Source of the DNA: Paracoccaceae bacterium
Lineage (GTDB): Bacteria; Pseudomonadota; Alphaproteobacteria; Rhodobacterales; Rhodobacteraceae
DNA length: 64,000 nucleotides
Direction: 5' to 3'
Assembly: GCA_029243395.1 (NCBI GenBank)
Contig: JAQWSE010000013.1
Span: 1 to 64,000, forward strand
Part shown: in pieces, positions 1 through 63,557 of the stretch
How positions within the stretch are numbered: position 1 is the first letter of the stretch
Layout of the letters: the number at the start of each line of letters is the position of its first letter
Notes under the pieces: generated by a model
Databases searched by the model: none
Told to the model about the DNA's origin: nothing
Seen by the model: only the letters and a program-made list of their open reading frames with translations
Translations under genes and position numbers: made by a program

Positions 1-1
1 C

Positions 2-9000: not shown

Positions 9001-12000
9001 TGGTGGTAGTACCATTAATATGGCGAATTCAGCATCAGGTGCTTATACTTTAGCCGGTGGTGCTGGTGTGGACATTATTACCGGAGGTTCAGGTGCGGAC
9101 ATTATTACTGGATCAGGTGGTAATGACGTTATTGCGGGCGGTACCGGAAATGATAGTATTACGGGTGGGGCAGATAATGATAGCTTTACCGGTGGTGGTG
9201 GCAACGATACCTTTAATGTAGATGCGGGAAGCGATACAATCACAGACTTAACGACTGGCGATGACCTCATCGTGAGTGGAAGCGCAACAGCTACAGCCAA
9301 TAATGTTTCTGCCTTTGTTGCTGATAGTGATACGACAAATGGAGGCGCGGCAACAATAAATGCAGCCAGTGGTGGTAGTACCATAACTCTGACCAGTTCA
9401 GCATCAGGAGCCTACACGGTTGCAGGCGGTGCTGGTGTGGACATTATTACTGGAGGTTCAGGTGCGGACATTATTACTGGATCAGGTGGTAATGACGTTA
9501 TTACGGGCGGTACCGGAAATGATAGCATTACAGGTGGGGCAGATAATGATAGCTTTACTGGTGGTGGTGGCAACGACACTTTTAATGTGGATTCAGGGAC
9601 TGATGCGGTTGCGGATTTAGCTACTGGAGATATTTTAGTTGTATCTTCTGGGGCAATTGCCAATGCTACAGGGATAACAGCATTTACTGCAACTAGCGGA
9701 ACAACAAACGCTGGAACAGCTAATTTAACTGCAAAAAGTACGGGCGGTACTATTGATATGTCTTCAGCAGGAGGTAGCACTGCTTATAATCTAATTAGTG
9801 GTGCCGGTACAGACACTCTTAAAGGTGATGCTGGAGGAGATACTTTTACTATAGCTGCAAGTGGAGAAGGTAACACGGATACTTTTGATGGAAATGGGGG
9901 AACGGATACTATTCAATTATCAACAGGAACTCACATTCTTTCTACAGATAGTAAGGTTGATGAAGTAGAAGTTGTGGCGACCAACGCTAGCGGTTCAACT
10001 CTTGATCTTACGGGTCAAGCCGAAGGTTTTACCATTACTGGTGGAGCAGGGGTAGACACCATCACAGGGGCTAATGGTGCTGACATTATTACGGGTGCAG
10101 CAAGCAATGACATTATTACTGGTGGGGCGGGAGCCGATAATATTACCGGTGGTGCTGGAAATGATACCTTAACTGGCGGTGCTGGAAACGACGTGTTTAA
10201 TGTTGATTCAGGTACTGACACAATTGCAGATTTAGCCACTGGCGATGACTTGAAAGTAAGCTCTGGAGCCGAGGCAACCGCTAATAATGTGGCAAACTTT
10301 GTGGCAGATAACGATACAACCAATGCAGGTGATGCTACTTTAAATTCGGCCAGTGGCGGAAGTACAATTACTCTTACCAATGCCGCATCAGGATCCTACA
10401 CTTTGGCTGGAGGATCTGGAGTTGATAATCTAACAGGTGGAGGTGCAACGGATATCATTACTGGAGGAAACGGAGATGACGTACTAACCGGAGGTCAGGG
10501 AAATGATAACATGACCGGTGGAAATGGTGCAGATACGTTCAAGGTGGATTCAGGAACGGACACTATTACAGACCTTTCGGGCAGTGATGTTTTGCAAGTC
10601 AGTTCAGGTGCTATTGCAAATGTCACAAACGTTAGTTCGTATACTGCAGGTGGAAGTACCAGTAATTCAGGGACAGCGAACATTACCACTGCAACCGGTG
10701 GCGGTACGGTTGACATGAGTTCGGCCGCAGGCAATTACAATCTTACTGGTCAGGGGGGTGTAGATACGCTAACTGGTGGGTCAGGAGCTGACATCATTTC
10801 TGCGGGAACGGGTGCTGATGCCTTAAGCGGTGGTGCTGGAAACGATGTTATCACAGGTGGTGATGATAACGATAATATGACTGGCGGTGCTGGCAACGAT
10901 ACTTTTAAAGTCGATATTGGCAATGACACTATTACCGATTTGACTACTGGGGATATTCTCATCGTGAGTAGTGGGGCCACTGCAAACGCAACAAATATTT
11001 CTGCTTTTGTAGCAACGAGCAGTACAACTAACTCTGGCGCAGCCAATTTAACAGCTGCGACCGGTGGTGGTAGCATAGATGTAGGAAATTCTGTCACAGG
11101 GGCTTACACGCTGACTGGCCTTTCAGGCAATGATACGCTTAAAGGCAATGGAAATAATGACACCCTTAACGGAGGTAGCGGCAATGATACTATAGACGGT
11201 CGAGGTGGCAATGATCAAATTGATGGCGGCTCTGGAAATGATATAATTATTGTTTCGACAGCAGGTCAAGGAAATAGCGACACTGTTGATGGTGGTGCAG
11301 GGGCTGATACACTTCAGTTGTCAACTGGATCTCATGCTATAGCTACTGATGCTTTATTGCAGAGTGTGGAGACAATTACTCTTAATTCTTCGGGGACAAC
11401 TATTGATCTTACTGGTCAAACTGAAGGTTTTACCATTACGGGTGGAGCAGCAACTGATGTAATTACTGCTGGTTCTGGTGATGACACTATAGATGGGGCT
11501 GCTGGAGCGGACACAATCACAGGAGCGGGGGGTGCTGATACAATTTCACTTGGCAGTTCAGATTCGGCGTCAGATATTATCATCTTTAATGCTTCGTCGG
11601 GTATGGATATAATTCAGCAATTTACAGCTGGAGCCTCCAACGGGGATATTTTGAAATATATTGGTAACCTAACCGATTCAGAAAGTTCTGCGAACACTTC
11701 AACCGGATCTGATGGAAGCGATCAGTTGCTCTCAGCAGACTTTACTGCTAATGCAACCAATAGCACCTTGGATATTACACATTTGGTAGTAGGTTTTAAA
11801 ACAGCTATTACACAAAATGGACTTTCATCAGGATCAGCCATTGATTTTACGGGAGCGGGCATTTCCTCTTCAATGATATTGAGTGCGATCGAAACATCTC
11901 TGGAAAATTCAAATGCTGGATCGGGAAATGGCTTGCTATCTGGCGCTTCAGCCCAGGTTACACAAGGCGATGCTAATGAAAGTAAACTCCTATTGTTCAC

Positions 12001-51797: not shown

Positions 51798-51873
51798 GCC
51801 TCTATAGCTCAGCTGGTAGAGCAACTGATTTGTAATCAGTGGGTCGGGAGTTCGAGTCTCTCTGGAGGCACCA
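51798..51873 (+). tRNA. tRNA-Thr (anticodon UGU)
   Basis: The gene folds into a full cloverleaf. The acceptor stem is GCCTCTA/TGGAGGC and the D-arm is AGCTCAGCTGGTAGAGC. The anticodon stem ACTGA/TCAGT has loop TTTGTAA (anticodon TGT). The T-loop is TTCGAGT, and the gene ends with an encoded CCA at 51871-51873. Confidence 0.97.
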
Positions 51874-52303
51874 ATAAAATCAATAACTTAGAAGATGTAC
51901 TGATACTATCGTGATCGCTTTGGGTTACAAATGGGTTGCAAAACATCACTGTTTAACGCTTAATACCCCTATTTCGTGCTCATATAAGCCTTGGAACTCA
52001 CATTTCATTTCAATTTGAAGTCGTGTTTAATTCTATACTAAAAGAGTAGCACTTTTGTGGAGATCTGTAGTTGTCCAAGAGCAGGGGTCACTGAGCCAAA
52101 TTGAAATTGATGATAGGTTCGACGGGAAAGGGGTACACCCTTATTCTGGAGGGGTGGGTCTTGAACCTCGGACCTTTAGAGTTAGTTCGGTAGATTCATT
52201 TCAGGGGGTTTTTGATTGATGGTTGGTTCTTCTGGTATTATCTAGTAAAATGGTGGAGCCAAGGGTAGTATTACCTAAAACATAACTCCCTGAAATCATA
52301 TAA
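51874..52303. other. Gene-poor stretch downstream of tRNA-Thr
   Basis: About 430 bp with no credible gene. It holds a tandem 11-mer (TGGGTTACAAA then TGGGTTGCAAA, 51921-51942), which resembles recombinase arm-type repeats near tRNA integration sites. It also holds degenerate repeat R1 at 52087-52210. No intact integrase is present. Confidence 0.5.
52087..52210 (+). repeat. Degenerate direct repeat R1 (partner at 53226-53319)
   Basis: R1 shares GTCACTGAG, AAGGGG, GGAGGG-TGGGTCTTG, GACCTTTAG-GTT, TTCGGTA and a G-run with R2 in the same order and strand, with a small insertion in R1. The pair brackets the two unknown genes 52304-53037. Confidence 0.65.
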
Positions 52304-52765
52304 TTATCGCATTCTTAATTCTTTAAGTACTCGATAGAATTGGCGATGTTTTACCATATTTCCATCAATAAAATCCTTTGGAAGGTCAACATTTTTTCTT
52401 CTTCTAAACAAAAGTTTAAACATACTGTATGCTGACAATCGAATATCTTTATATCCTGGTGATATTCTGATTACTTCGCCATATTGTATGATCCCTGTTT
52501 TTCTTAAATCTTTAATTAGAGTTTGAGAACAATCTAATTTTTTTGGTAATCCTAATGCAGATACGACCATTAATCGACAAAAAGCATCACGCCCTACTGG
52601 TTGGTTATGGAAATAAAGAGCTTCCTCTATAAGGTCTAAACCAACGTCTACAGTGTAAGCACAGACGAATGTACAGTTCATTGGTAAGGGTAACATGTGG
52701 CCAGGATATGGGTTGGTAAATGGTTTTACAGGCCAAGGGGTAATATGAATAATGTCCAGTGACAT
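52304..52765 (-). CDS. Unknown 153-residue protein, second gene of a leader-sharing pair
   Basis: The protein MSLDIIHITPWPVKPF... is not recognised. It is mostly helical in appearance with a basic C-terminal third (RRRKNVDLPKDF, KHRQFYRVLKELRMR). A central stretch (LIKDLRKTGIIQYGEVIRI) has a faint winged-helix look. The start at 52765 is chosen because GCGGAG lies 7 nt upstream, in a leader nearly identical to that of the neighbouring gene; the frame runs 15 codons further through that leader. The context is a likely decayed mobile element. Confidence 0.6.
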   Translation of the reverse strand: MSLDIIHITPWPVKPFTNPYPGHMLPLPMNCTFVCAYTVDVGLDLIEEALYFHNQPVGRDAFCRLMVVSALGLPKKLDCSQTLIKDLRKTGIIQYGEVIRISPGYKDIRLSAYSMFKLLFRRRKNVDLPKDFIDGNMVKHRQFYRVLKELRMR

Positions 52766-52768
52766 GAT

Positions 52769-52816
52769 TTTTCTCCGCTTTAGTGCTTTAGGCAGGATGC
52801 CAAGGTGCACAAGTTG
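52769..52816 (-). repeat. Shared leader, copy LA (partner LB at 53043-53090)
   Basis: LA and LB match at 43 of 48 positions, with 24 consecutive identical bases next to the genes. On the minus strand each ends CACTAAAGCGGAGAAAA followed by 3-5 nt and the ATG, so the copied unit contains the ribosome site. It also contains a doubled CTAAAGC. Confidence 0.85.
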
Positions 52817-52836
52817 AAATTAAGGGGACCTGTTTT

Positions 52837-53037
52837 CTACATAGCTAGATCTAAGTAATCCTGAGGAGAAAGATAGATACCTTGGCTCTCCAAACTTTTA
52901 ATAGTTTCTATTTCTAAACTTGAAAGTTGGAACACAGCTTTTTGTTTATACTTTCTATAAAGCTCTATTTTTACTTTATCTATAATAGCATCTTGCTCAG
53001 CAAGAAATGCTTCGTCGTTAAAGTCTATTTTAGCCAT
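52837..53037 (-). CDS. Unknown 66-residue protein, first gene of a leader-sharing pair
   Basis: The small acidic-to-basic helical protein MAKIDFNDEAFLAEQDAIIDK... is not recognised. It has heptad-like leucine and isoleucine spacing (FQLSSLEIETIKSLESQGI). The ATG is preceded by GCGGAG within leader LB. It lies 71 bp upstream of the 153-residue gene on the same strand. A small helical partner upstream of a larger basic protein would fit a toxin-antitoxin or phage accessory pair, but no motif proves this. Confidence 0.55.
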   Translation of the reverse strand: MAKIDFNDEAFLAEQDAIIDKVKIELYRKYKQKAVFQLSSLEIETIKSLESQGIYLSPQDYLDLAM

Positions 53038-53042
53038 GAGAG

Positions 53043-53090
53043 TTTTCTCCGCTTTAGTGCTTTAGGAACCATTCCAAGGCGCACAAGTTG
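53043..53090 (-). repeat. Shared leader, copy LB
   Basis: This is the partner of LA at 52769-52816; it includes the ribosome site of the 66-residue gene. The differences from LA are confined to the half distal to the gene. Confidence 0.85.
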
Positions 53091-53225
53091 GTGATTAAAT
53101 GCCTAACTACAATATACTAACTTATCCAATTAGTTTCAACCATGAATCCCTACACACACCCCATTTCCTTCCAGAATCCCATACCATTCAGAACACCCAA
53201 TACGACTCTCCTGAGGCTTCCTAGA

Positions 53226-53319
53226 GTCACTGAGGGTAGGGCAAGGGGCACCCCCTGACTACGGAGGGTGGGTCTTGGACCTTTAGGGTTGATTCGGTAA
53301 ATTTATTTGGGGGGGGGTT
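53226..53319 (+). repeat. Degenerate direct repeat R2 (partner of R1)
   Basis: Same order of conserved blocks as R1, ending in a long G-run. The rest of 53091-53409 shows no gene. Confidence 0.65.
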
Positions 53320-53409
53320 GATTAGAGTCTTCCCAAGACTGCAAATCTGCATAAACTGTTGCGATAAAAAAGATTCTTATACTGATGTGGAGTTTAATGG
53401 TATTTGTGC

Positions 53410-53463
53410 TTTTGGGTACCGTAGGTCGTAGGTTCGAATCCTATCGCCCCGACCACTTTTCAC
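53410..53463 (+). repeat. tRNA-Pro(UGG) 3'-half fragment, left copy (attachment-site-like)
   Basis: The first part reads as the anticodon loop (TTTGGGT), the 3' strand of the anticodon stem (ACCGT) and variable loop AGGTC. Then come T-arm GTAGG-TTCGAAT-CCTAT, acceptor strand CGCCCCG, A and CCA. The 5' half of the tRNA is missing; upstream bases do not pair with ACCGT. All 54 bp are identical to the copy at 62369-62422, and the match continues for seven more bases after one mismatch. Confidence 0.9.
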
Positions 53464-53470
53464 CCAACTA

Positions 53471-53668
53471 TGCTTAGAAAACGTTAAATTCGATTATGAT
53501 ACGTTTGTAACAAATGGCTGAAAAAGTGACACATTTCAGGATTTGAGTGTTATAAGGAACTTCGGTCAGGAGGATGAACTAGCAAAATAACCCTAATAAT
53601 CGAAGGCACGACAGCCCTACGCTTGGTTCCGAGCTCTTTCCTGATGACTTAATTACTACTCAACAAAA
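53471..53668. other. Non-coding left end of the island
   Basis: About 200 bp between the left tRNA fragment and the IclR gene contain no credible gene. TTTGTAACAAATGGC (53503-53517) and GTGACACATTTCAGG nearby resemble the TGTAACACATT motif just inside the right end (62315-62328). Confidence 0.4.
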
Positions 53669-54451
53669 CTAGTATGTTATTTTCGCACCTGCAGCTCGAG
53701 AGATAGTCGCAACGCACTCCTGCAAGGGCTTAGTATAAAAATTGTGATCAGTCTTTACTCTATACAAAGGCACTGAAATACTTACTGCTGCGATAGGATT
53801 AAGTTTTTCATTTAGTATAGCTGCACCAAAGCATGAGATACCTGTTTCATTCTCCTGATCATCATTTACATATCCCAAACGACGATACTTTTCGACCTGC
53901 TCTTCGAGCGCTTGAAAGGTTATTGTTGTTCGGTTGGTGATCTTCTCTAATTTTAGACTATTTATCAGTGCTTTAAAGTCTGCGGTTGGAAGAGCTGATA
54001 GAAACGATTTACCCACACTTGTAGAATGCAACGCGACTCTGGCCCCTATGCTAGAGGCCATGCGAACAACCTTAAGACTTTCTATTTTATCAATATAAAC
54101 CATTTCATTGCCACTCCGTATGGCTAGATGTACAGTTTCTCCTGTGCGGTCTCGCAAGCTTTCAAGCTCTAGTCTTGCAAGGCTGCGAATATCTATATCT
54201 TCGAGGGCGCGACGCGCCAACCCAACAAGTCGTATACCTAGTTTGTAACGTCCTTCGTTAGTTTTTGCGACTAATTCTTCAGCCTCTAGACTTGCCAAAA
54301 TACGGTAAAGTGTAGGTCGAGACAGGTCGCAGCTAGATTGAAGATCGGTAGTGGTCGGTGGCGATCCATAATTTGAAATTACCTGTAGAACAGCAATACT
54401 CCGGGAGAAGCTTTGCGTGCCGGGGACAACTTTAGTCAAAGTAAACTCCAT
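53669..54451 (-). CDS. IclR family transcriptional regulator
   Basis: The 260-residue protein has the N-terminal winged helix-turn-helix (SRSIAVLQVISNYGSPPTTTDLQ, SRPTLYRILASLE; residues ~16-60). The IclR effector domain follows (LGIRLVGLARRAL, VGKSFLSALPT, GYVNDDQENETGISCFGA, AAVSISVP). IclR proteins sense small carbon compounds and repress or activate adjacent catabolic operons. It is divergent from the SDR-cupin genes, with a promoter and palindrome between them, so it probably controls them. Its G+C content looks higher than the window average. Confidence 0.92.
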   Translation of the reverse strand: MEFTLTKVVPGTQSFSRSIAVLQVISNYGSPPTTTDLQSSCDLSRPTLYRILASLEAEELVAKTNEGRYKLGIRLVGLARRALEDIDIRSLARLELESLRDRTGETVHLAIRSGNEMVYIDKIESLKVVRMASSIGARVALHSTSVGKSFLSALPTADFKALINSLKLEKITNRTTITFQALEEQVEKYRRLGYVNDDQENETGISCFGAAILNEKLNPIAAVSISVPLYRVKTDHNFYTKPLQECVATISRAAGAKITY

Positions 54452-54482
54452 TGTTTAATTAGAACAATCGTGAGTATTGTGG

Positions 54483-54512
54483 TTGACAAAATCGATATCA
54501 AATTCATAATAT
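54483..54512 (+). promoter_or_regulatory. Sigma-70-type promoter of the SDR-cupin operon
   Basis: TTGACA (54483-54488) and TAATAT (54507-54512) with an 18-nt spacer give a strong predicted promoter reading away from the IclR gene. Transcription should start near 54519, just before the palindrome at 54531. Confidence 0.7.
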
Positions 54513-54530
54513 TACAATATGGTGTAAAAA

Positions 54531-54547
54531 TGTCCATATTATGGACA
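54531..54547. promoter_or_regulatory. 17-bp perfect palindrome, probable IclR-family operator
   Basis: TGTCCATATTATGGACA has perfect 8-bp arms around one central base. It lies about 12 bp downstream of the predicted transcription start and between the divergent IclR and SDR genes. Binding here would block transcription, so IclR-mediated repression relieved by a substrate is the simplest reading (inference). Its position also argues that translation starts at 54569, not at the ATG at 54530. Confidence 0.7.
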
Positions 54548-54568
54548 AATTTGAAAGAAGTGCAAGGA

Positions 54569-55279
54569 ATGATTGACTTTTCACCTGACGCTCCAAGAGC
54601 CCTTATTAGTGGAGGTACCAGCGGTATTGGTTTGGAGCTGGCACGTGGGTTTGCGGCTGCAGGTTATAATGTCGATGCTGTCGGTCTTGGCGCGCTACCT
54701 CAGAGTACGCCTAAAATTAGCTATGCTTCATTAGATATTGCGGATGGCCTAGCGGTTTCTATTTTCGTATCTAATATAGGTGAGCTAGATGTTGTGGTGA
54801 ATGCTGCAGGCATTATTCGCCGTGAGGATGAATTTGACCCAGATGTTTTTGCCAAGGTTATTGATATCAACCTTAACGGTGCAATGCGTGTTTGTACGGC
54901 CTCAAGGACAGCTCTTGCCAAGCGTAGTGGTAGCATTATAAATATTGCGTCAATGCTGACTTATTTTGGAGGAGGCAATGTTCCGGCTTACTCATCATCC
55001 AAAGGTGGGATTGCACAATTAACCAAATCTTTAGCGATTGCTTACGCCCCAGAGGCGATTCGAGTGAACGCTCTGGCTCCAGGTTGGATTGCAACACCGC
55101 TTACCGAGGGTTTACGAAATGATCCGGTAAGGAATAACGGCATCCTCGCACGCACACCCTTAAAGCGCTGGGGAGAACCAGAAGACCTAGTTGCCCCAGC
55201 GTTATTTTTAGCAGGTGCTGGAGCAGGCTTTATTACCGGCACAATTTTGAATGTAGATGGCGGCTATGCCATAGTTTAA
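54569..55279 (+). CDS. SDR oxidoreductase (gluconate/sugar dehydrogenase type)
   Basis: The 236-residue SDR has SGGTSGIGLELARGFA, a shortened middle with VVNAAGIIRREDEF, catalytic IASMLTYFGGG and YSSSKGGIAQLTKSLA, then NALAPGWIATPLTEGL and VDGG. The start at ATG 54569 has GAAAGAAG upstream and lies beyond the operator. It is the first gene of the IclR-controlled unit, with the cupin gene 23 bp downstream. It probably oxidises a sugar or sugar-derived alcohol; substrate unknown. Confidence 0.88.
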   Translation: MIDFSPDAPRALISGGTSGIGLELARGFAAAGYNVDAVGLGALPQSTPKISYASLDIADGLAVSIFVSNIGELDVVVNAAGIIRREDEFDPDVFAKVIDINLNGAMRVCTASRTALAKRSGSIINIASMLTYFGGGNVPAYSSSKGGIAQLTKSLAIAYAPEAIRVNALAPGWIATPLTEGLRNDPVRNNGILARTPLKRWGEPEDLVAPALFLAGAGAGFITGTILNVDGGYAIV

Positions 55280-55302
55280 TATTTATCAGAAGGACGATAC
55301 CA

Positions 55303-55833
55303 ATGCCACTTATAACCGAAGATATAAATGCAAAAATGCCCTATCAGCACTCTATGCCTGCGGATGCTTTGCCTGAAATTGTTGTTTCAGATGCATTATC
55401 AGAGGGGGATCAGCGTATGTGGGTACAGCAGACGGAGCATGTCTTTTTCCGGCCGCTCTGCCTAAATGCCAGTCAAGGATATTGGATGAACTTGCTTAAG
55501 GTTACAAAATCAGGTGTATTATCGCGGCACCGCCACCCAAATGCTGTACACGGTTTTGTACTAAAAGGCCGTTGGCATTACTTAGAACATGATTGGGAGG
55601 CGCGCGAAGGATCATATGTTTTTGAGCCACCAGGTGAAACCCATACCCTTGTCGTGCCGGATGATGTAGATGAAATGATCACTTATTTTCAGGTGAATGG
55701 CACCATGAATTATGTTGATCCACACGGCAAACACTTAGGATATGAAGATGTCTTTACTAAAATTGATATGTGCCGCGCCCATTTTGAGAAGGTTGGTCTT
55801 GGTGCTGATTACGTTAAGACATTTATTCGATAG
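55303..55833 (+). CDS. Cupin-domain protein, 2,4'-dihydroxyacetophenone dioxygenase-like
   Basis: The 176-residue single-cupin protein has metal-binding motif 1 in SGVLSRHRHPNAVHGFVLKGRW (HxH) and motif 2 in EPPGETHTLVVPD (His). The N-terminal region before the cupin and the length fit the 2,4'-dihydroxyacetophenone dioxygenase / ChrR-like cupin group. It could be a dioxygenase or a metal-dependent isomerase; sugar-linked cupins are common in such clusters. GAAGGA precedes the ATG. It follows the SDR gene and precedes the transporter genes. Confidence 0.82.
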   Translation: MPLITEDINAKMPYQHSMPADALPEIVVSDALSEGDQRMWVQQTEHVFFRPLCLNASQGYWMNLLKVTKSGVLSRHRHPNAVHGFVLKGRWHYLEHDWEAREGSYVFEPPGETHTLVVPDDVDEMITYFQVNGTMNYVDPHGKHLGYEDVFTKIDMCRAHFEKVGLGADYVKTFIR

Positions 55834-55907
55834 TCATATGAATAGTTACATGAGTCTTTATATTATCAAAATTGTGTTCATTAAAAAAATTGAGAAAGGT
55901 GAAAAGA

Positions 55908-56714
55908 TTGTCGTATAACTCAAAAGAGTTAGATAACAAGGTTGCAGTTGTAACTGGTGGTGCAACGGGTATCGGTTTAGCCTCAGCGCGGCTATTAATC
56001 GAGCGTGGAGCAAAAGTTGCTATTTTAGGAAATGATCAAGATGCCTTAGATGTAGCTTTGAGTGAGCTAAAGCTTCTTTCTGAATCGACTATAGCTATTT
56101 TATGTGATGTAAGTAGTGAGGATTCAGTTGAGAATGCTTTTAGCATTTTTGATCGATCCTTTGATAGGTTATCGATCTTAGTTTCTAATGCAGCCATTCA
56201 ACCTTTTGGTACAGTAGAAGATACCCCGAATGCTCTTTGGAATGAAATTCAAGGAGTGAATTTAACGGGATCTTACCTAACTGCAAGAGCATCCATTAAA
56301 CGAATGAAAAAATCGGGAAGCGGTTCAATAATTAATGTTACTTCAGTACAGGGCTCTGCAACTCAAAAACGAGTAGCTGCCTACTCTACATCAAAAGGTG
56401 GTCTATTAGCACTGACCAGAGCAACTGCGGTAGATCATGCTGAAGATAACATTAGGTGTAATTCTGTAAGTCCTGGATGTATTGATGCGCCAATGACTAG
56501 GTTTTCTGCGAGTAAGAACACAACCCCTGAAAATGAACGCAATTTAATGGAGCAATGGGGACGGATGCAACCTCTTGGACGGATGGGAACAGCACCGGAA
56601 GTCGCTGAGGTTATCGTATTTCTTGCCAGTGATAGAGCTAGCTTTTGTACTGGAGCAGATTTTAAAGTGGATGGTGGCCTGATGGCTTCGTTGGGAGTGA
56701 AATTGCCTGATTAA
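55908..56714 (+). CDS. SDR oxidoreductase of the sugar transporter operon
   Basis: The 268-residue SDR shows VTGGATGIGLASARLL, LVSNAAIQPFGTVED, catalytic NVTSVQGSATQKRV and YSTSKGGLLALTRA, then CNSVSPGCIDAPMT and VDGG. A TTG start at 55908 is chosen (AAAGG about 8 nt upstream); a TTG 12 codons earlier is the alternative. It precedes the permease gene by 21 bp, so it is probably cotranscribed with the transporter and oxidises its substrate. Confidence 0.86.
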   Translation: MSYNSKELDNKVAVVTGGATGIGLASARLLIERGAKVAILGNDQDALDVALSELKLLSESTIAILCDVSSEDSVENAFSIFDRSFDRLSILVSNAAIQPFGTVEDTPNALWNEIQGVNLTGSYLTARASIKRMKKSGSGSIINVTSVQGSATQKRVAAYSTSKGGLLALTRATAVDHAEDNIRCNSVSPGCIDAPMTRFSASKNTTPENERNLMEQWGRMQPLGRMGTAPEVAEVIVFLASDRASFCTGADFKVDGGLMASLGVKLPD

Positions 56715-56735
56715 TTAATAATTTGTGGATAATAA

Positions 56736-57713
56736 ATGGTTAACATGATTACGAGAATTTTAAATTTTGGAAGAATTAAAACAAAATTAAATCCGCTATT
56801 TTTGACAACGGGCCTGATGTTCTTAGCAGCATTAATATTTTTATTTCTGAACAGTCCCGAATTTTTCTGGCTTAATAATATAGTAAATATATTCAATCAA
56901 TGCGCTGTGTTGGCAATTTTATCATTGGGAATGAGCATTGTAATGATTGGAGGGGGGATCGACTTGTCTTTACCTGCAAACATGGCCCTCTCTGCGATTT
57001 TTGGTAGTACTATCATGATTTTGACTGGAAGTGTTCCATTGGGCTGTTTAATAATGCTTATCTCAGGAGTAGCGATTGGCTCTCTAAATGGTTTCGCAAT
57101 TGCACGATTAAGGATGATACCTTTTGTTGTAACTCTTGCAACAATGACAATCTGTGGAGGGATATCAGTATGGGTAACGAATTCTGTAAGTATATTTAAT
57201 CAGCCTGAGAAATTTTTTGATATATTTTTAGCGCGAGTTTTAGGTCTGCCACTTTCAATTTATATTCTCATTATTTGTCTGATAATGACGCAAATTGCTA
57301 TGTCATTCACTCGCTTTGGTTGGATGGTTTATGCGGTAGGGACGAGCCCATCAGTTTGTAAAGTTTCCCGAATCCCAGTGAAGCAGGTACTTTTTTCTAC
57401 CTATGTCTTAGCAGGGTTTTTGGCTGGAGTATCGGCAATTGTTGTCACTGCACGTTTAGGCTCTGCTTCGGCAAATATTGGAAATGATAGCGTAATTTTA
57501 GATATAGTAACAGCATGTGTTATTGGCGGCGTAAGTATTTATGGTGGAAAAGGTCGACCAGTTGGTGCTTGTTTAGGTGCAGTATTAGTAGTAATCCTAG
57601 GTAACATATTGAATTTATTAGAAATTTCATTTTTTATAGGTTTAATGCTAAAGGGCTTTCTTATTATATTCTTCGTCAGTTTAGATGGGCTATTGGTAAA
57701 ACAAAATGAATAA
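56736..57713 (+). CDS. Ribose/rhamnose-type sugar ABC transporter permease (RbsC family)
   Basis: The 325-residue inner-membrane protein has about nine or ten hydrophobic segments. RbsC-family marks are GMSIVMIGGGIDLSLPANMALS, LNGFAIARLRMIPFVVTLATM and CVIGGVSIYGGKGRPVGACLGA. It overlaps the ATPase gene by 8 bp. It pairs with the second permease (59205-60158) in a likely heterodimeric channel. Confidence 0.92.
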   Translation: MVNMITRILNFGRIKTKLNPLFLTTGLMFLAALIFLFLNSPEFFWLNNIVNIFNQCAVLAILSLGMSIVMIGGGIDLSLPANMALSAIFGSTIMILTGSVPLGCLIMLISGVAIGSLNGFAIARLRMIPFVVTLATMTICGGISVWVTNSVSIFNQPEKFFDIFLARVLGLPLSIYILIICLIMTQIAMSFTRFGWMVYAVGTSPSVCKVSRIPVKQVLFSTYVLAGFLAGVSAIVVTARLGSASANIGNDSVILDIVTACVIGGVSIYGGKGRPVGACLGAVLVVILGNILNLLEISFFIGLMLKGFLIIFFVSLDGLLVKQNE

Positions 57714-59208
57714 AAATATTCTCCAAATGCAAAATATTAAAAAGACCTATGGGCCAATCACGGCTTTGTCGAATGCAAGTATTTTGTTGAAGGAGGGAAG
57801 TGTAGTCGCCCTGGTTGGTGCCAATGGCGCTGGAAAGTCAACATTAATGAATATTTTAGGGGGCATTACTGCACAAGATGACGGTGAACTACTTGTAAAC
57901 GATAAAAAAGTCAATTTTAATTCGCCGGTAGATGCTGCTCGTTATGGGATACAATTCGTACATCAAGAGTTAAGTATTTTTAAGACTATGACAGTTGCTG
58001 AAAATATTTTTATAAATCAATTCCCTGCACAGTTTGGAATAATTTCTAAGCAGGTGATTGAGTCTACTACAAAACAATTATTGGCCGAGCTCGGATCTAA
58101 TCTTAATCCGCATCATTATGTGGAAAGCTTATCAACTGGTGATTGTCAAATGGTTGTAATTGCTCGAGCAATGCTTGGGAATCCAAAAATTCTTATTTTA
58201 GATGAACCGACTTCATCACTTTCGAAATATGAAAAAGAAAAATTGAATCTGGTGATTGGCCGTTTAAAAGAAGCCGGTGTCGCTATCATATATATAACTC
58301 ATTTCATAAGTGAAATATTTGAAGTTTGTGACTCCGTTACGGTAATGCGAAATGGAGTAACTATTTCGTCACAAGCCATTCATGAAACTGATAATTCCAA
58401 AATCATAGAGTTAATGTTGGGCGATGTTGCGAGCATTGAGAAGAAAAGAAAAAAAGAAAGAAGTGAAAACATTTTTTTAAAAGTTGATAAATTGCAGAAT
58501 GAGAATAAAGTTAAAGAGGCAAGTTTTGAATTAAATAAAGGTGAAATTCTTGGAATATGGGGATTACTTGGTTCTGGTCGAACAGAATTAGTAAGGTCAA
58601 TAATAGGGTTAGATGGTGAACCAAAGGGTACTATACTTATAAGCAGGCATGGTAAACTTACTCCAGTCTCAACTGAATACTTGTCTGGAATTACTGCCTA
58701 CGTATCTGAAGATAGGCGAGGTGAAGGAGTCTTATTGCCGATGTCAGTGCTTAAAAATACCGCACTGCCGAACCTTAAGAAGGTTTCTGGTAACTTAGGC
58801 ATGATAATGCTTAATAAGGCTCGAAACTTAGCAACAAGGGTAATCAATAGCCTATCAATTAAAGTTTCAAACTTTGATCAAACAGTAGGTACATTGAGTG
58901 GTGGAAACCAGCAAAAGATTGTTTTTGGAAAATGGCTTGAGACAGAGCCTGATCTTTTAATTTTAGATGAGCCTACGAGAGGTTTGGACATATCAGCTAA
59001 GGGTGAAATTCTAAAGATTGCAACCGACCTTGCTAATAATGGTGTATCCATTCTATTTATTTCTTCTGAACTAGAAGAATTGATGAAAATAAGTGATAGA
59101 TATTTAATTATCTCTGAGAGATACGTTGTGGCGGAATTACCCGGAGATAGTACCCAAGACACTCTTATATCAGCTCTTTCAAAAAATGTTCAGGGGAGTG
59201 CGGCATGA
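57706..59208 (+). CDS. Sugar ABC transporter, double ATPase (RbsA family)
   Basis: The 500-residue cytoplasmic protein has two ATP-binding domains. The first has Walker A GANGAGKSTLMN and LILDEPTSSLS. The second has the degenerate P-loop GLLGSGRTELVRS, VSEDRRGEG, signature LSGGNQQKIV and LILDEPTRGLD, as typical for RbsA/MglA/XylG. In the first domain the signature reads LSTGDCQMV rather than the usual LSxGxxQ form. It overlaps both permease genes (8 bp and 4 bp). Confidence 0.94.
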   Translation: MNKNILQMQNIKKTYGPITALSNASILLKEGSVVALVGANGAGKSTLMNILGGITAQDDGELLVNDKKVNFNSPVDAARYGIQFVHQELSIFKTMTVAENIFINQFPAQFGIISKQVIESTTKQLLAELGSNLNPHHYVESLSTGDCQMVVIARAMLGNPKILILDEPTSSLSKYEKEKLNLVIGRLKEAGVAIIYITHFISEIFEVCDSVTVMRNGVTISSQAIHETDNSKIIELMLGDVASIEKKRKKERSENIFLKVDKLQNENKVKEASFELNKGEILGIWGLLGSGRTELVRSIIGLDGEPKGTILISRHGKLTPVSTEYLSGITAYVSEDRRGEGVLLPMSVLKNTALPNLKKVSGNLGMIMLNKARNLATRVINSLSIKVSNFDQTVGTLSGGNQQKIVFGKWLETEPDLLILDEPTRGLDISAKGEILKIATDLANNGVSILFISSELEELMKISDRYLIISERYVVAELPGDSTQDTLISALSKNVQGSAA

Positions 59209-60158
59209 ATTTAGATTTTACGCGAAACAGGGCTCTGGATTTTGCGTTTCCAATATTTTTAGTGCTTGTCTCGCTTGGGTTTGCTCTTGTTAAGCCCAGT
59301 TTTTTGGGGTTGGAAAATATATTTGGTATGCTCCATGCCATGGCACCGATCGCTATTATATCAACTGGTATGGCGTTGATCGTTATCATGGGTAAGCTTG
59401 ATATTTCTTTAGGTTCTATTGCGTTGGTTTCTATGGGGGTTTCCGCTACACTACTTCAGTCTGGATATGGTTTTATTAGCTCAACTGTGATTGCTCTACT
59501 CGTTGGTGCCATTCTTGGTGCGGTGAACGGATTTATAATATGCATATTAAAAGTTAATCCTTTGATAGCGACGCTGGGCACAATGCTTGCATTTCGTGGT
59601 CTTGGTAATCAAATTACCGATGCTCATGTAGTTGTGCTTCCTGATGGCTTTAGGGCATTAGGTAACTTTTCCCTTGGTATAATTTATTTTGATACAGTTA
59701 TTTGCTTAGTATTACTTATATCAGTTCATGTGCTTCACCGACGCACAAAATTTGGAAAAGTTGTAACAGCGATTGGAAATGACGAAACTACTGCTGAACG
59801 TGTTGGTTTACCCGTAACCCGAACTATTTTTTTCAGTTTTGTGATTGCGGGAATGTTAGCGTCAATCGGCGGTTTTTTTGCGTCTGCTCAGGTTGGAGCT
59901 GTAACATCATTTCTTGGTAAGGGCTTGGAGTTTACGGCTGTAGCGGTGGTTGTAGTCGGAGGAATAAGTCTCTTTGGAGGCAGGGGATCAATTTTATGGG
60001 GAGTAATTTTAGGAAGTTTAACATTTGAAGTAATAAGGAGTGGCCTCAACTATCTTGGAGCTAATCCTTATTTCTACCAGTTGATTGGCGGTATTGTTAT
60101 TTTTATTGCAATGTATGCTGCCGTTATCAAGATGGGGTACTCAGCCAATGATAGCTAG
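59205..60158 (+). CDS. Sugar ABC transporter permease, second RbsC-family subunit
   Basis: The 317-residue membrane protein has RbsC-family marks: GMALIVIMGKLDISLGSIALVS, VNGFIICILKVNPLIATLGTMLAFRG, GNDETTAERVGLPV and AVVVVGGISLFGGRGSILWGV. The ATG overlaps the ATPase stop by 4 bp. The binding-protein gene follows after 62 bp. Confidence 0.92.
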   Translation: MNLDFTRNRALDFAFPIFLVLVSLGFALVKPSFLGLENIFGMLHAMAPIAIISTGMALIVIMGKLDISLGSIALVSMGVSATLLQSGYGFISSTVIALLVGAILGAVNGFIICILKVNPLIATLGTMLAFRGLGNQITDAHVVVLPDGFRALGNFSLGIIYFDTVICLVLLISVHVLHRRTKFGKVVTAIGNDETTAERVGLPVTRTIFFSFVIAGMLASIGGFFASAQVGAVTSFLGKGLEFTAVAVVVVGGISLFGGRGSILWGVILGSLTFEVIRSGLNYLGANPYFYQLIGGIVIFIAMYAAVIKMGYSANDS

Positions 60159-60220
60159 GTATTCCGAATTTTATAGTCGAGAGACTAATTTTAATTATTG
60201 AAAGAAATGGGAGAAAAATT

Positions 60221-61204
60221 ATGAAACGATTTAGTATATTATCAGTAATTATTTGTCTTGTAGTACCAGTTCAGGTTCTTGCGTCTGATCTTACAATTGG
60301 ATTTTCTTGGAATTCAGTTACGCAGCCTCTAGAAAGGGCGTGGGAAGATTATATGAGATCCGAAGCAGAGGTTCAAGGTAAGGCTGCTGGGGTCAATATT
60401 AAGTGGGTTTTCAATGTGGCTGACGGTGACCCTAGTCGGCAGGCAAATAATATTGAAGATTTAATAACGCAAGGAGTGGATATTGTGTCAGCTCGGGCTG
60501 AGGATGCTGGGGCAATAAACGCGTCAATAAGAGCTGCAAAGTCAGCTAATATTCCCTTTATTACTTTTGATAGGAAGAGTGGTAGTGTGGCTCCAACAGC
60601 GCATGTGGGTGGTGATAGTTATGATCAGGCACTAACAACTGGAAGAGCTTTTGCAGATTTGCTGGGATCTAAAGGCGTAACTGGTAAGTGTATTGAGCTT
60701 CAAGGTGCTCTAACTGATATCAACGCAGTACAACGGACTAAAGGTTGGGCTAAAGTTGTAGCTGAGCGATCTGAAGTCTCCACTATTACTCAAGTTCCAA
60801 CTGAGTGGAATCCAGAGTTGTTTAGATCTGGTTTGGCCAATGCTCTGAGAGCAAATCCTGATGCCAATTGTGCTTTTATTGCAAGTGATTTTGCCATTAC
60901 GGCAGTCCAAGCTGCTCTTGAAGAGGCTGATAAGTGGTACCCAAGCGGGCATCCTAAACATTTTTGGTTAGCCACTCAAGATGTCTTGCCTGGTGCTGTA
61001 CCGTTAATGGAAGCAAAATACATTGATGTATCAACAAGTTATGATGCATTTGCCCATAGCCAGGAGATGGTGCGCGTAGCTATTGCGATCCATAAAGGTG
61101 AGGATCCTGGTTGTAGTGCTGATGGTTGCCTAGCTAAGGGACGAGTAGTTACACCCGCTAATATAGGTACAATTGAAAACTTATGGTCAAAAACCTATAA
61201 ATAA
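60221..61204 (+). CDS. Sugar ABC transporter periplasmic binding protein (periplasmic-binding family 4)
   Basis: The 327-residue protein has a signal peptide (MKRFSILSVIICLVVPVQVLA) and the ribose-binding-like fold: IGFSWNSVTQPLERAWEDYM, then QANNIEDLITQGVDIVSARAEDAGAIN, then FITFDRKS and CAFIASDFAITAVQAALEEA. A cysteine pair near the C terminus (DPGCSADGCLAKG) may form a disulphide. GGGAGAAAA lies before the ATG. It delivers a monosaccharide or derivative to the adjacent permeases. Confidence 0.93.
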   Translation: MKRFSILSVIICLVVPVQVLASDLTIGFSWNSVTQPLERAWEDYMRSEAEVQGKAAGVNIKWVFNVADGDPSRQANNIEDLITQGVDIVSARAEDAGAINASIRAAKSANIPFITFDRKSGSVAPTAHVGGDSYDQALTTGRAFADLLGSKGVTGKCIELQGALTDINAVQRTKGWAKVVAERSEVSTITQVPTEWNPELFRSGLANALRANPDANCAFIASDFAITAVQAALEEADKWYPSGHPKHFWLATQDVLPGAVPLMEAKYIDVSTSYDAFAHSQEMVRVAIAIHKGEDPGCSADGCLAKGRVVTPANIGTIENLWSKTYK

Positions 61205-61260
61205 TTAGGATTGGCTCCGGGTAGCTCTGGGGCCAATTAAATTCTTTTGATGAGGTCTTA

Positions 61261-62136
61261 ATGTTAAAAAAACTGACGAATTTAACGTGTACTCTCGGAG
61301 AAGGCCCAGTCTGGGACTATCAGAAAAATAAACTCTGGTGGGTTGATATTAAACAAAAAAAAATTTTATCTCTTTCAGATGCAAATGAGGTAGAGGTCAT
61401 CAATTGTCCTGGTCAAGTTGGTTGTCTGGGACTTTTGGATGAAAACCATCTCATAGTTGCTGAAGAAACCGGAATTTATACGGTGAACCTTCAAACACAT
61501 AATTTTAATAGATTAGGAGAGATTTCTCCAGAACAAGGTACCGTTCGATATAATGATGGAAAAATTGGACCCGATGGAAGGTTTTGGTTTGGAAGTTTGG
61601 ATGACTCAACATTTCCAGATACTGGGTGCCTATATTCAATCGATGTGGACGGCAAAGTAAAAAAACATTTGGAAAAGATTCGATGCTCAAATGGCATTGG
61701 TTGGACAGATGATGGTAATAGAATGTTTTTTACCGATAGTAAGCAAAGGATGATTTGGTCTTTTGATTTTAACAAAACTGATGGAAACATTTCAAATAAG
61801 GCTTTGTTTGTAGAGATTAGTGGAGATCAAGTTCCTGACGGACTGGCGGTTGATCTCGAGGGTAATGTTTGGTCGGCTATGTGGGACGGCTGGTGTATCG
61901 TAAAGTTTAACCCCAATGGTAGAGAACTTGAAAGGGTCAGTGTTCCTGTTCCTAGACCGACCAGTTGTGCATTCGGAGGAAGGGATATGAAAACTTTGTT
62001 TATCACTTCTGCGCGTATGGACCTTAATCAACAAATTTTAGCAGACGCTCCAGATTCTGGAGAACTTTTTTCAATAAAGGTCGATATTCCAGGAGTGCCG
62101 GTGGGAAGCTTTAAACATTTACCAAGGGCAGATTAG
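61261..62136 (+). CDS. SMP-30/gluconolactonase family protein
   Basis: The 291-residue six-bladed beta-propeller lactonase has CTLGEGPVWDYQKNKLWWVD, which carries the metal-binding Glu, then VRYNDGKIGPDGRFWFG, IRCSNGIGWTDDGNRMFFTDS and VPDGLAVDLEGNVWSAMWDG (Asn and Asp ligands). It hydrolyses sugar lactones made by sugar dehydrogenases. With the SDRs and transporter upstream this suggests the order sugar uptake, oxidation to lactone, opening to aldonate. GATGAGGT precedes the ATG. It is the last gene of the island. Confidence 0.93.
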   Translation: MLKKLTNLTCTLGEGPVWDYQKNKLWWVDIKQKKILSLSDANEVEVINCPGQVGCLGLLDENHLIVAEETGIYTVNLQTHNFNRLGEISPEQGTVRYNDGKIGPDGRFWFGSLDDSTFPDTGCLYSIDVDGKVKKHLEKIRCSNGIGWTDDGNRMFFTDSKQRMIWSFDFNKTDGNISNKALFVEISGDQVPDGLAVDLEGNVWSAMWDGWCIVKFNPNGRELERVSVPVPRPTSCAFGGRDMKTLFITSARMDLNQQILADAPDSGELFSIKVDIPGVPVGSFKHLPRAD

Positions 62137-62494
62137 ACTAGCTTAGCGATTGATACGCTACAGCAATAGTGTCTGGAGAAAAGTCGTTTTTATTTAATGG
62201 ATATGATTTTCTGGTAGCTTATGCAAACACCTCATTGAAGATTTAGAAGATCACTTTGAAAAGTCGAAGAAAGTAAAACGGTATAACGCTTTAGAGGTAA
62301 CTCGATGTAGCACCGATGTAACACATTGTCCTGTCACTGAGAGTGAAGCATATTACAGATTAGAACGGTTTTGGGTACCGTAGGTCGTAGGTTCGAATCC
62401 TATCGCCCCGACCACTTTTCACTCAACTAAGTAACCCAACCCTCGCTTTAACAACAAAAAAACGATATAATAAAACCCTATATAAGGGGTAATT
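62137..62494. other. Right end of the island and flank
   Basis: About 360 bp without a confident gene. It contains the motif GATGTAACACATTG (62315-62328), an open frame 62207-62383 that runs into the tRNA fragment, and the right tRNA-Pro copy. After the fragment there is A+T-rich sequence leading to a small gene. Confidence 0.5.
62369..62422 (+). repeat. tRNA-Pro(UGG) 3'-half fragment, right copy
   Basis: Identical over 54 bp to 53410-53463. Here the five bases ACGGT at 62365-62369 pair with ACCGT, so the whole anticodon stem-loop is restored, but the D-arm and acceptor 5' strand are absent. The tRNA is therefore not functional. Confidence 0.9.
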
Positions 62495-62680
62495 ATGAAG
62501 TTTACTAAAAACAATATGGTTGGGTTTGCAACTAGGTTTGGGGACCAATGGGGAGGTGTGCGCTGTGGTGCTAAGACCAGATCAGGTTCTGCGTGCCAAC
62601 GTCCAGCATACCAGGTCAATGGAAAGTGCCATTTGCATGGTGGGGCGAGTACTGGACCACGGACCGAGGCTGGCCTTTAA
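62495..62680 (+). CDS. Small phage-type HGG(x)STGP motif protein
   Basis: The 61-residue protein has the pattern RCGAKTRSGSACQRPAY, then GKCHLHGGASTGPRTEAGL: two Cys-containing turns followed by HGGxSTGP. Small proteins with this pattern are frequent in prophages and integrated elements; the Cys/His spacing suggests zinc binding. A ribosome-site-like AAGGGG lies a few bases before the ATG. It sits directly outside the right tRNA-Pro fragment and supports an integration hotspot. Function unknown. Confidence 0.65.
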   Translation: MKFTKNNMVGFATRFGDQWGGVRCGAKTRSGSACQRPAYQVNGKCHLHGGASTGPRTEAGL

Positions 62681-62816
62681 AATGGGTGGGTGGATGGATA
62701 GGTTAAACAATTTGGTTGCTTAACTTAATATGCTAGAACAGGTAATGATCTACTATTGTTTTCTTTGACTACTGAAAGATATATTTTGAGAAATTTTACA
62801 AATTGAGGACGCCGCA

Positions 62817-63557
62817 ATGATTTACTTGCACAAGTTATTACCGTTACTAGTCAGTCCTTTAGCAATAATATTATATTTTCTTCTTATATCATTTTTTACT
62901 AAATCACGTTGGCCTAGTATATGTGCAATTATCTCAGTAATTATTTTTAGCAATCCAATTGTTGCACAATTCGGGAAAACATATTTGGAGAAAGATTACC
63001 CTGTAATCGAGTTGAAAAATATTCCCAAGGTCGACAGTATAGTGGTCCTTAGTGGCATGATAAGGAATATAGAAAAAACGAATGGGGAAATCGATTACGA
63101 GTTTAGCGAAGCAGTGGATAGATTTGAGGCAGGCATTTCTCTCATGGAACTTGGTAAATCAACTTCTATTATTTTTACGCGAGGGTGGTTGGCTTGGTCC
63201 GTTGGTATGCCTGAAGGTGAATATTTAAGATCTTTAGCTGTGGCTAGGGGGATTAATACTAATAATATTAGTTTAACCCCAGAAGTTAAAAACACTGATG
63301 AAGAAGCTGAGGCAATTTTCAGATTGCTTGGAAGTAATAACACTATTGCTCTGGTAACTTCGGCTTTTCATATGCCACGGGCAATTAAGGTTTTTGAACA
63401 AAGGAATTTCAATATTGTGCCTATAGCAGTTGATCGAAGGGCAGGGGTGAGCAAACTAACTTTTCTTGATTTTTTACCCAGCGGGAATGCAATCGCAGAA
63501 AATTCTCTTTTTTTCCGGGAAATAATTGGTAGGGTATATTACGCTCTAATCTATTGA
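62817..63557 (+). CDS. DUF218 (ElyC/SanA/YdcF) family envelope protein
   Basis: The 246-residue protein has two N-terminal membrane segments (LLPLLVSPLAIILYFLLISFF and ICAIISVIIFSNPIV). The DUF218 domain follows: VDSIVVLSGM, IFTRGWLAWS, LTPEVKNTDEEA and ALVTSAFHMPRA. ElyC-like proteins affect envelope integrity and lipid-carrier or peptidoglycan metabolism. GAGGAC lies upstream of the ATG. It marks the return to core chromosome after the island. Confidence 0.87.
   Translation: MIYLHKLLPLLVSPLAIILYFLLISFFTKSRWPSICAIISVIIFSNPIVAQFGKTYLEKDYPVIELKNIPKVDSIVVLSGMIRNIEKTNGEIDYEFSEAVDRFEAGISLMELGKSTSIIFTRGWLAWSVGMPEGEYLRSLAVARGINTNNISLTPEVKNTDEEAEAIFRLLGSNNTIALVTSAFHMPRAIKVFEQRNFNIVPIAVDRRAGVSKLTFLDFLPSGNAIAENSLFFREIIGRVYYALIY

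Follow-up and report, generated by a model that had tools for sequence, protein, structure and literature searches.

Cis-mobilizable elements (CIMEs), as presented in PMC5704250, keep both attachment sites, attL and attR, miss the integration and transfer genes, and stand in tandem with other elements at the end of a target gene. The ssrA islands of Dehalococcoides, in the account of PMC3146451, are tandem units that bear metabolic cargo and are delimited by repeats of an RNA-gene 3' end; an integration module is missing from 15 of them. Additive flexible genomic islands marked by 20-nt tRNA-Lys repeats are described in Ca. Methylopumilus (PMC10872708). Here, we describe a locus of this general kind in a 64,000-nt stretch of the Paracoccaceae bacterium assembly GCA_029243395.1 (contig JAQWSE010000013.1, positions 1 to 64,000 of the forward strand; hereafter the window, in which all coordinates are positions), where two halves of a tRNA-Pro(UGG) bound nine sugar-use genes. 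Our findings favour, with moderate confidence, the reading of 53410-62422 as a CIME-like cargo unit that was integrated site-specifically, has no integrase inside and would depend on one acting in trans or made available by accretion.

At the sequence level, the unit resembles the CIMEs of PMC5704250 in that a putative attL and attR of one shared core lie on its two sides and in that no integration or transfer gene was found inside it with Pfam, NCBIfam, PHROGs or tblastn; it differs in that its site is not at its tRNA gene, and its accretion and mobilization are putative. No parent integrative and conjugative element (ICE) or integrative and mobilizable element (IME) was found, and neither an integrase of its own nor the relaxase and transfer genes of an island, ICE or IME were recognized in the unit (Pfam, NCBIfam, tblastn). 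With the Dehalococcoides islands of PMC3146451 it shares repeat-delimited tandem units, metabolic cargo and the lack of an integration module, but those arrays start with an intact ssrA and their known integrase is a serine recombinase, whereas the present assembly holds no intact parental tRNA and the unit has no known integrase. Like the tycheposons of PMC10872708, it represents tRNA-associated metabolic cargo in a small-genome plankter; unlike them, it is bordered by halves only (starting at 53410 and 62369), the intact tRNA-Thr 1.5 kb away being of another type, and no tyrosine recombinase was found inside it (Pfam, tblastn). The flexible islands covered in the same source share with it a variable gene content marked by recurring tRNA 3'-end repeats, whereas the repeat described here is 54 nt long, is displaced from the tRNA gene and has a flank common to two genera. 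Genes of phage satellites, namely phage-inducible chromosomal islands (PICI) and phage-inducible chromosomal minimalist islands (PICMI), for integration, replication and packaging interference were not found in the nine open reading frames (ORFs) with Pfam, NCBIfam or PHROGs, and our search of one literature collection returned no paper on such units in this bacterial group. The unit is real and well delimited; its displaced site and cross-genus flank lend it more interest than a lone relic would have, although it belongs, as a variant, to a type already known.

The tRNA-Pro halves and their source

The segments 53410-53463 and 62369-62422 are identical over 54 nt on the same strand, and the repeat family to which they belong (D16; 53410-53470 and 62369-62429, spacing 8959) extends to 61 nt at 98%, with the 55th base as the sole mismatch. 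Bases 1-46 of the repeat equal tRNA-Pro(UGG) from the anticodon loop to CCA, the 8 further identical bases lying outside the tRNA, and copy 2 alone carries this identity 4 nt leftward (ACGG, 62365-62368) into the 5' side of the anticodon stem. A chance repeat is ruled out by the 46/46 tRNA identity together with the 98% over 61 nt. ARAGORN called neither copy as a tRNA, tRNA-Thr(UGU) at 51798-51873 being the only tRNA in the window. The initial annotation, which had claimed two identical 54-bp, same-orientation, incomplete tRNA-Pro(UGG) 3' halves around 9 kb of purely metabolic cargo with no recognizable recombinase, is thus borne out to the exact coordinates of the repeats, to the nine sugar-use genes (Pfam, NCBIfam) and to the missing recombinase (Pfam, NCBIfam, PHROGs, tblastn with integrases). 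Composition would not mark the unit, since its G+C content (0.401) is close to that of its flanks (0.374 and 0.389).

The halves do not derive from the tRNA-Pro of their host. In the own genome (labelled G000, relatives being G001-G307; 2,486,996 bases in 13 contigs, 97.94% complete, with 33 tRNAs found and 30 typed by ARAGORN), a search for the 32-nt tail that allowed up to 3 mismatches hit the two copies and nothing else, so the additional copies whose search had been proposed did not turn up. Nor did an intact parent: the own tRNA-Pro(UGG) at C2:149731 is intact, but its 3' half differs clearly from the repeat, at many positions, and was missed by the 3-mismatch search, which rules it out as the origin. 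Among 394 genomes of the family, presumably Rhodobacteraceae, 43 (own included) contain the 46-mer within 3 mismatches. Thirty of these loci were examined: 28 hold an intact tRNA-Pro(UGG), 18 of which match without a mismatch, and the two that do not are the own locus and G307. The halves are thus equal, 46/46, to intact tRNA-Pro genes of other genera.

A phage uses the same span. Paracoccus phage vB_PyeM_Pyei1 (MK291445) has an annotated 52-nt attachment site in tRNA-Pro(TGG), 93.5% identical to bases 1-46 of the repeat, with an adjoining integrase, and copy 2 matches from the second base of that site. Because the repeat covers an annotated phage attachment site, its extent is that of a tRNA-Pro attachment core of phage type. 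The likeness ends there, as Pyei1 is a phage with an integrase, whereas the unit has neither an integrase nor a structural gene (Pfam, PHROGs). Partial matches to the half occur in six other phage records and fall, in two of these, within annotated tRNA-Pro genes. Separately, three Psychrobacter contigs were among the matches of one scan that also returned same-genus genomes.

A shared flank with changing cargo and candidate arm sites

We propose that the unit may have entered by site-specific recombination, catalysed by a tyrosine-type integrase, at an orphan tRNA-Pro 3' half that would already have been apart from any tRNA-Pro gene, in a hotspot downstream of tRNA-Thr(UGU). Copy 1 and its downstream flank would represent attL with the P' arm, and the P arm with copy 2 would form attR. 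Retaining both putative attachment sites and the arm-like sites, and no integrase, the unit would move only if a phage or island that recognizes the same site supplied an integrase in trans, or if accretion with such an element provided one in cis. From the arrangement we infer such a supply, in trans or in cis, as well as present mobility; the integrase of the unit would be either encoded elsewhere or lost.

The flank 3' of copy 1, referred to as type A, is conserved in relatives to about 53534-53548. Of the 11 other genus genomes, five (G009, G002, G008, G011 and G010) have it after a Pro half; flank plus half are there 80-86% identical over 125-140 nt, and in all five the flank is followed by a PALP-family (cysK-like) gene (Pfam) belonging to one gene family. 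A gapped pattern combining the tRNA-Pro tail with an arm site was found in 2 of the 394 family genomes, namely the own genome and G307, a member of another genus. The G307 contig (C85, 7512 bases) carries a Pro half with the full type A flank, 79% identical to copy 1 over 149 nt, and, 1.42 kb before that half, a degenerate Pro tail with a partial flank (48 nt at 94% and, besides, a duplicated 94-nt piece at 87%). One alpha/beta hydrolase ORF lies between tail and half, and an ATP-binding cassette (ABC) ATPase and a solute-binding protein, which we read as a polyamine-type importer, lie 3' of the second half (all Pfam). The contig has no tRNA and no tblastn match with 15 integrases, and no integrase was found by tblastn adjoining the type A flank in the five genus genomes or G307. 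Considering the own, PALP, hydrolase and ABC importer contexts, four cargoes stand behind a complete or partial type A flank, and the same flank across cargoes favours supply in trans or accretion over a lost integrase. The suggestion in the initial annotation that the cargo was mobilized in trans is accordingly plausible as regards one attachment flank with different cargoes; its other half, an integrase recognizing that flank, was not found.

Further, a 9-mer weight matrix was built from nine 9-mers in the type A flanks of five relatives' genomes, with the own flank excluded. On both strands of the window, its three highest scores fall at 53526 (GTGACACAT), 62318 (GTAACACAT) and 53507 (GTAACAAAT), that is, two just inside copy 1 and the second-best just inside copy 2. 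Other genus DNA, the flanks used for the model included, reaches the score of 62318 twice in 775,154 positions, and the exact motif GTRACACAT occurs twice in the window, at the two unit ends. These arm-like sites may bind an integrase.

Several observations weigh against this reading. The 9-mer motif was spotted by eye before modelling, the third-ranked site scores 11.23 and the fourth, at position 1902, 11.08, which is a thin margin, and the two P' sites are 19 nt apart. When paired 10-mers with a period of 11 or 12 were tested, the own copies reached 7/10 each, a score common under the null, and several tRNAs without a known island, for example Phe, Ala, Met and Ser, also reached 9/10. The first Pro tail of G307 has no 9-mer pair, and the same gene always found 3' of the type A flank in the five genus genomes could mean an old fixed neighbour. 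Finally, no integrase recognizing the Pro-half site was identified in the own genome or the relatives searched, and of the five PF00589 matches in the own genome three adjoin other tRNAs (an Asn half, Thr-CGU and Leu, the Leu one below the cut-off); the other two are presumably Xer-like.

Integrases, tandem units in relatives and competing explanations

The nine cargo ORFs fall into metabolic, unknown or general-regulator families only and include no recombinase family (Pfam, PHROGs, and NCBIfam among the matches listed). Using tblastn, 14 integrases at E<=1e-4 and 15 integrases at E<=1e-3 gave no match in the window, and with the threshold relaxed to E<=5 the best value in 51871-62820 was 0.20, which equals noise. 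Around intact tRNA-Pro genes of the same allele, within about 1.5 kb on each side at most, tblastn with 14 integrases found none at the 30 loci, of which the own locus is one. A virus collection, scanned for exact matches only to the half plus CTTTT pattern and to the arm pattern, yielded 0 stretches, and plasmids held no match to 53410-53560.

tRNA halves of the Thr, Gln, Asn, Ser and Pro types occur on the genus stretches examined. In G011:C10, Thr halves bound adjacent units of 2.5 kb without and 10.2 kb with an integrase, and tandem halves delimit units of both sorts in G011:C10 and C19 and units without an integrase in G307:C85. By our tally, 12 of 15 tRNA-end-delimited units have no integrase match, 2 have one and 1 has a remnant, figures that are not a rate, since the stretches were chosen for their halves, some halves are degenerate, two units end in 20 matching bases and G307 entered by tblastn only. 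In G004:C31 (L068:8956-14719), an intact tRNA-Pro of the ACGG type is followed 5.7 kb downstream by a Pro half, with a 1671-aa ORF of RTX (repeats-in-toxin) repeats and no integrase match between them; in the own genome (G000:C1:229825-241199, L199), an intact tRNA-Asn and an Asn half stand 10.1 kb apart with no integrase match inside, an integrase following directly after the half. Taken with the joining of copy 2 to a flank of another element (type B, see below), the tandem halves of the relatives support well the earlier proposal that the locus is one unit of a tandem island array. Two halves in G006 labelled Pro by best match were not counted as such because their ending differs; we take it to fit initiator tRNA-Met. 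In G001:C4 (L069:9950-9999), 0.3 kb behind tRNA-Thr, a half combines a Pro-like left part with a tRNA-Asn right part and is possibly a recombinant of two attachment sites.

The alternative that survives best, although we consider it rather unlikely, is an immobile relic, in which an integrase-bearing island entered, its integrase was deleted and the cargo became fixed under selection with no mobilization in trans. Integrase remnants beside islands of relatives fit such decay (a 1.9-kb tRNA-Gln island in G009:C1, L070:8949-10958, has a remnant with stop codons, and short tblastn pieces occur in G009 and G008), as do the short HGGxSTG (HGG) ORF at the right edge, with 61 aa against 113 aa in G011, and the absence from the own P' arm of a 12-nt stretch present in G307. 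However, the halves are identical to each other and, over 46/46, to intact tRNAs, whereas the Pro halves of same-genus relatives have changes, and independent decay would not most simply predict that one flank precedes several cargoes in two genera with no integrase seen. That the sugar genes were brought in by homologous or illegitimate recombination between pre-existing halves, i.e. by an integrase-free cassette exchange, is improbable: halves are frequent on the stretches examined and offer short homology, and the region is a mosaic, but efficient homologous exchange usually takes more than 54-61 nt and such a process leaves the arm-like 9-mers at both ends unexplained. That the assembly wrongly joined unrelated contigs at the repeat is very improbable, as, despite the 13 contigs of the genome, this contig measures 322,894 bases, both flanks match other genus genomes, the repeat is short and like structures appear in other assemblies.

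A wider and doubtful picture would be that an integrase-less cassette family moves between small-genome marine genera via displaced tRNA-Pro halves, served by one phage or island integrase in trans. Its orphan attachment sites might be nested in other tRNA hotspots, by analogy with integron cassettes that use an integrase encoded elsewhere, and its cargo so far would tentatively comprise sugar import plus oxidation, the PALP enzyme, the alpha/beta hydrolase and the ABC importer. Were the main reading of the unit true, small-genome ocean bacteria could gain substrate-use operons without an integrase of their own, another element bearing the cost of mobility, and spent tRNA fragments would persist, at a distance from the tRNA gene, as docking sites. 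That reading predicts a phage or island integrase that recognizes the 46-50 nt core together with GTRACACAT-type arm sites.

Cargo genes and surroundings of the unit

The features of the locus are compiled in Table 1. Among the matches listed for the nine cargo ORFs, none reaches the cut-off of its NCBIfam model; the cupin and the lactonase have no NCBIfam match, and the results for the two short-chain dehydrogenases/reductases (SDRs) and the ATPase represent the best 25 families each. By best NCBIfam models, the transporter resembles the ribose/arabinose class. The gene set suggests a pathway for the uptake and oxidation of a sugar or sugar acid, which would presumably be the benefit of the cargo. 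Its donor is not evident from the binding protein: in the family and class scans (at most 5 candidates scored per genome in the rows listed), E<=1e-20 is reached in 4 of 394 family genomes, of which one is the own genome and three match at 30-37% identity, and E<=1e-30 by the own genome alone among 385 class genomes; the virus collection gave 1 candidate relative and 0 loci. In the other 11 genus genomes (10 of them 60-83% complete and one 89%), the cargo has matches of up to 62 bases only, with at most 25 first-look candidates scored per genome, and an arrangement with all these genes at the same place without the repeats, looked for in those 11, was not found.

Table 1. Coordinates of the features at the sugar-use unit and its flanks
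Feature	Position	Strand	Evidence
tRNA-Thr(UGU), intact, anchoring the hotspot on the left	51798..51873	+	ARAGORN; conserved upstream genes
Paired 10-mers, period 11 (TGGGTTACAA/TGGGTTGCAA), candidate integrase arm sites of a tRNA-Thr element	51921..51941	+	9/10
Mosaic of short repeats also in relatives' loci	51874..53409		Repeat comparison
tRNA-Pro half copy 1, candidate attL (tRNA part 53410-53455)	53410..53463	+	Repeat and tRNA identity
Type A flank, candidate P' arm; 9-mer sites 53507-53515 and 53526-53534	53456..53548	+	Conserved in relatives
IclR-family regulator	53669..54451	-	PF01614 8e-45
SDR, first; best NCBIfam models KduD and gluconate 5-dehydrogenase, below cut-offs	54569..55279	+	Pfam, NCBIfam
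ChrR-type cupin	55303..55833	+	PF12973 1.5e-19
SDR, second	55899..56714	+	Pfam, NCBIfam
Sugar ABC permease	56736..57713	+	Pfam, NCBIfam
Sugar ABC ATPase; best models AraG and RbsA, below cut-offs	57706..59208	+	Pfam, NCBIfam
Sugar ABC permease, second	59205..60158	+	Pfam, NCBIfam
Periplasmic sugar-binding protein	60221..61204	+	PF13407 1.5e-39
SMP-30/gluconolactonase	61261..62136	+	PF08450 3e-83
Candidate P arm, GTAGCACCG and GTAACACAT, period 11	62307..62326	+	62318 second-best in window, relatives-only 9-mer matrix
tRNA-Pro half copy 2, candidate attR (tRNA identity 62365-62414)	62365..62422	+	Repeat and tRNA identity
Short HGGxSTG ORF, 61 aa, in type B flank	62495..62677	+	NF041373 2e-17; G011 ORF of 113 aa
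DUF218 gene, first right-flank gene common with G004, 87% identical	62817..63557	+	Flank comparison

Five gene families stand in the same order upstream of tRNA-Thr(UGU) in the own genome, G011, G001, G005, G002 and G010. Downstream of the tRNA, over the 2.2 to 32 kb compared, only G011 and G010 share a family, which is one single-linkage group. Conserved upstream order with differing downstream gene content in six genomes identifies tRNA-Thr as a variable hotspot. The 66 nt directly 3' of the tRNA are 85% identical between the own genome and G011, and a paired repeat matching in 9 or 10 of 10 positions lies behind tRNA-Thr in 6 of 6 genomes, with the best pair of G011 at a different offset; of 3000 random stretches, 81 score 9 or more. 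The mosaic between tRNA-Thr and copy 1 probably consists of remnants of earlier elements; a 168-aa ORF on its minus strand has no Pfam match. Left of copy 1, we also noted the direct-repeat pairs 52766-52816/53040-53090 (88%) and 52124-52208/53239-53315 (74%), similar stretches of which occur in relatives.

On the right, the type B flank behind copy 2 recurs next to a decayed Pro half in G001:C6 and, with no half, in the tRNA-Thr hotspot of G011, and the integrase-bearing unit of G011:C10 contains an ORF grouped with the HGG ORF. The sugar unit therefore seems to adjoin the end of an older element at copy 2. The DUF218 gene that follows is presumably YdcF-like. The comparison with related genomes for an empty site with a single copy, as the initial annotation had suggested, produced no true empty site in 12 genus genomes; G001:C6, with its decayed Pro half and type B flank, was considered and rejected, its left flank being unrelated.

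Two further observations concern the wider sequence. A dispersed motif resembling GGGTACCCCAAAAACCATAGCC, noted by eye, precedes several Thr halves (L062, L063, L066, L188 and L194) and occurs inverted before Pro halves. Near the contig start, window positions 1-11500 form a long RTX/hemolysin-type repeat region with 27-nt periodic units and one 97-copy family.

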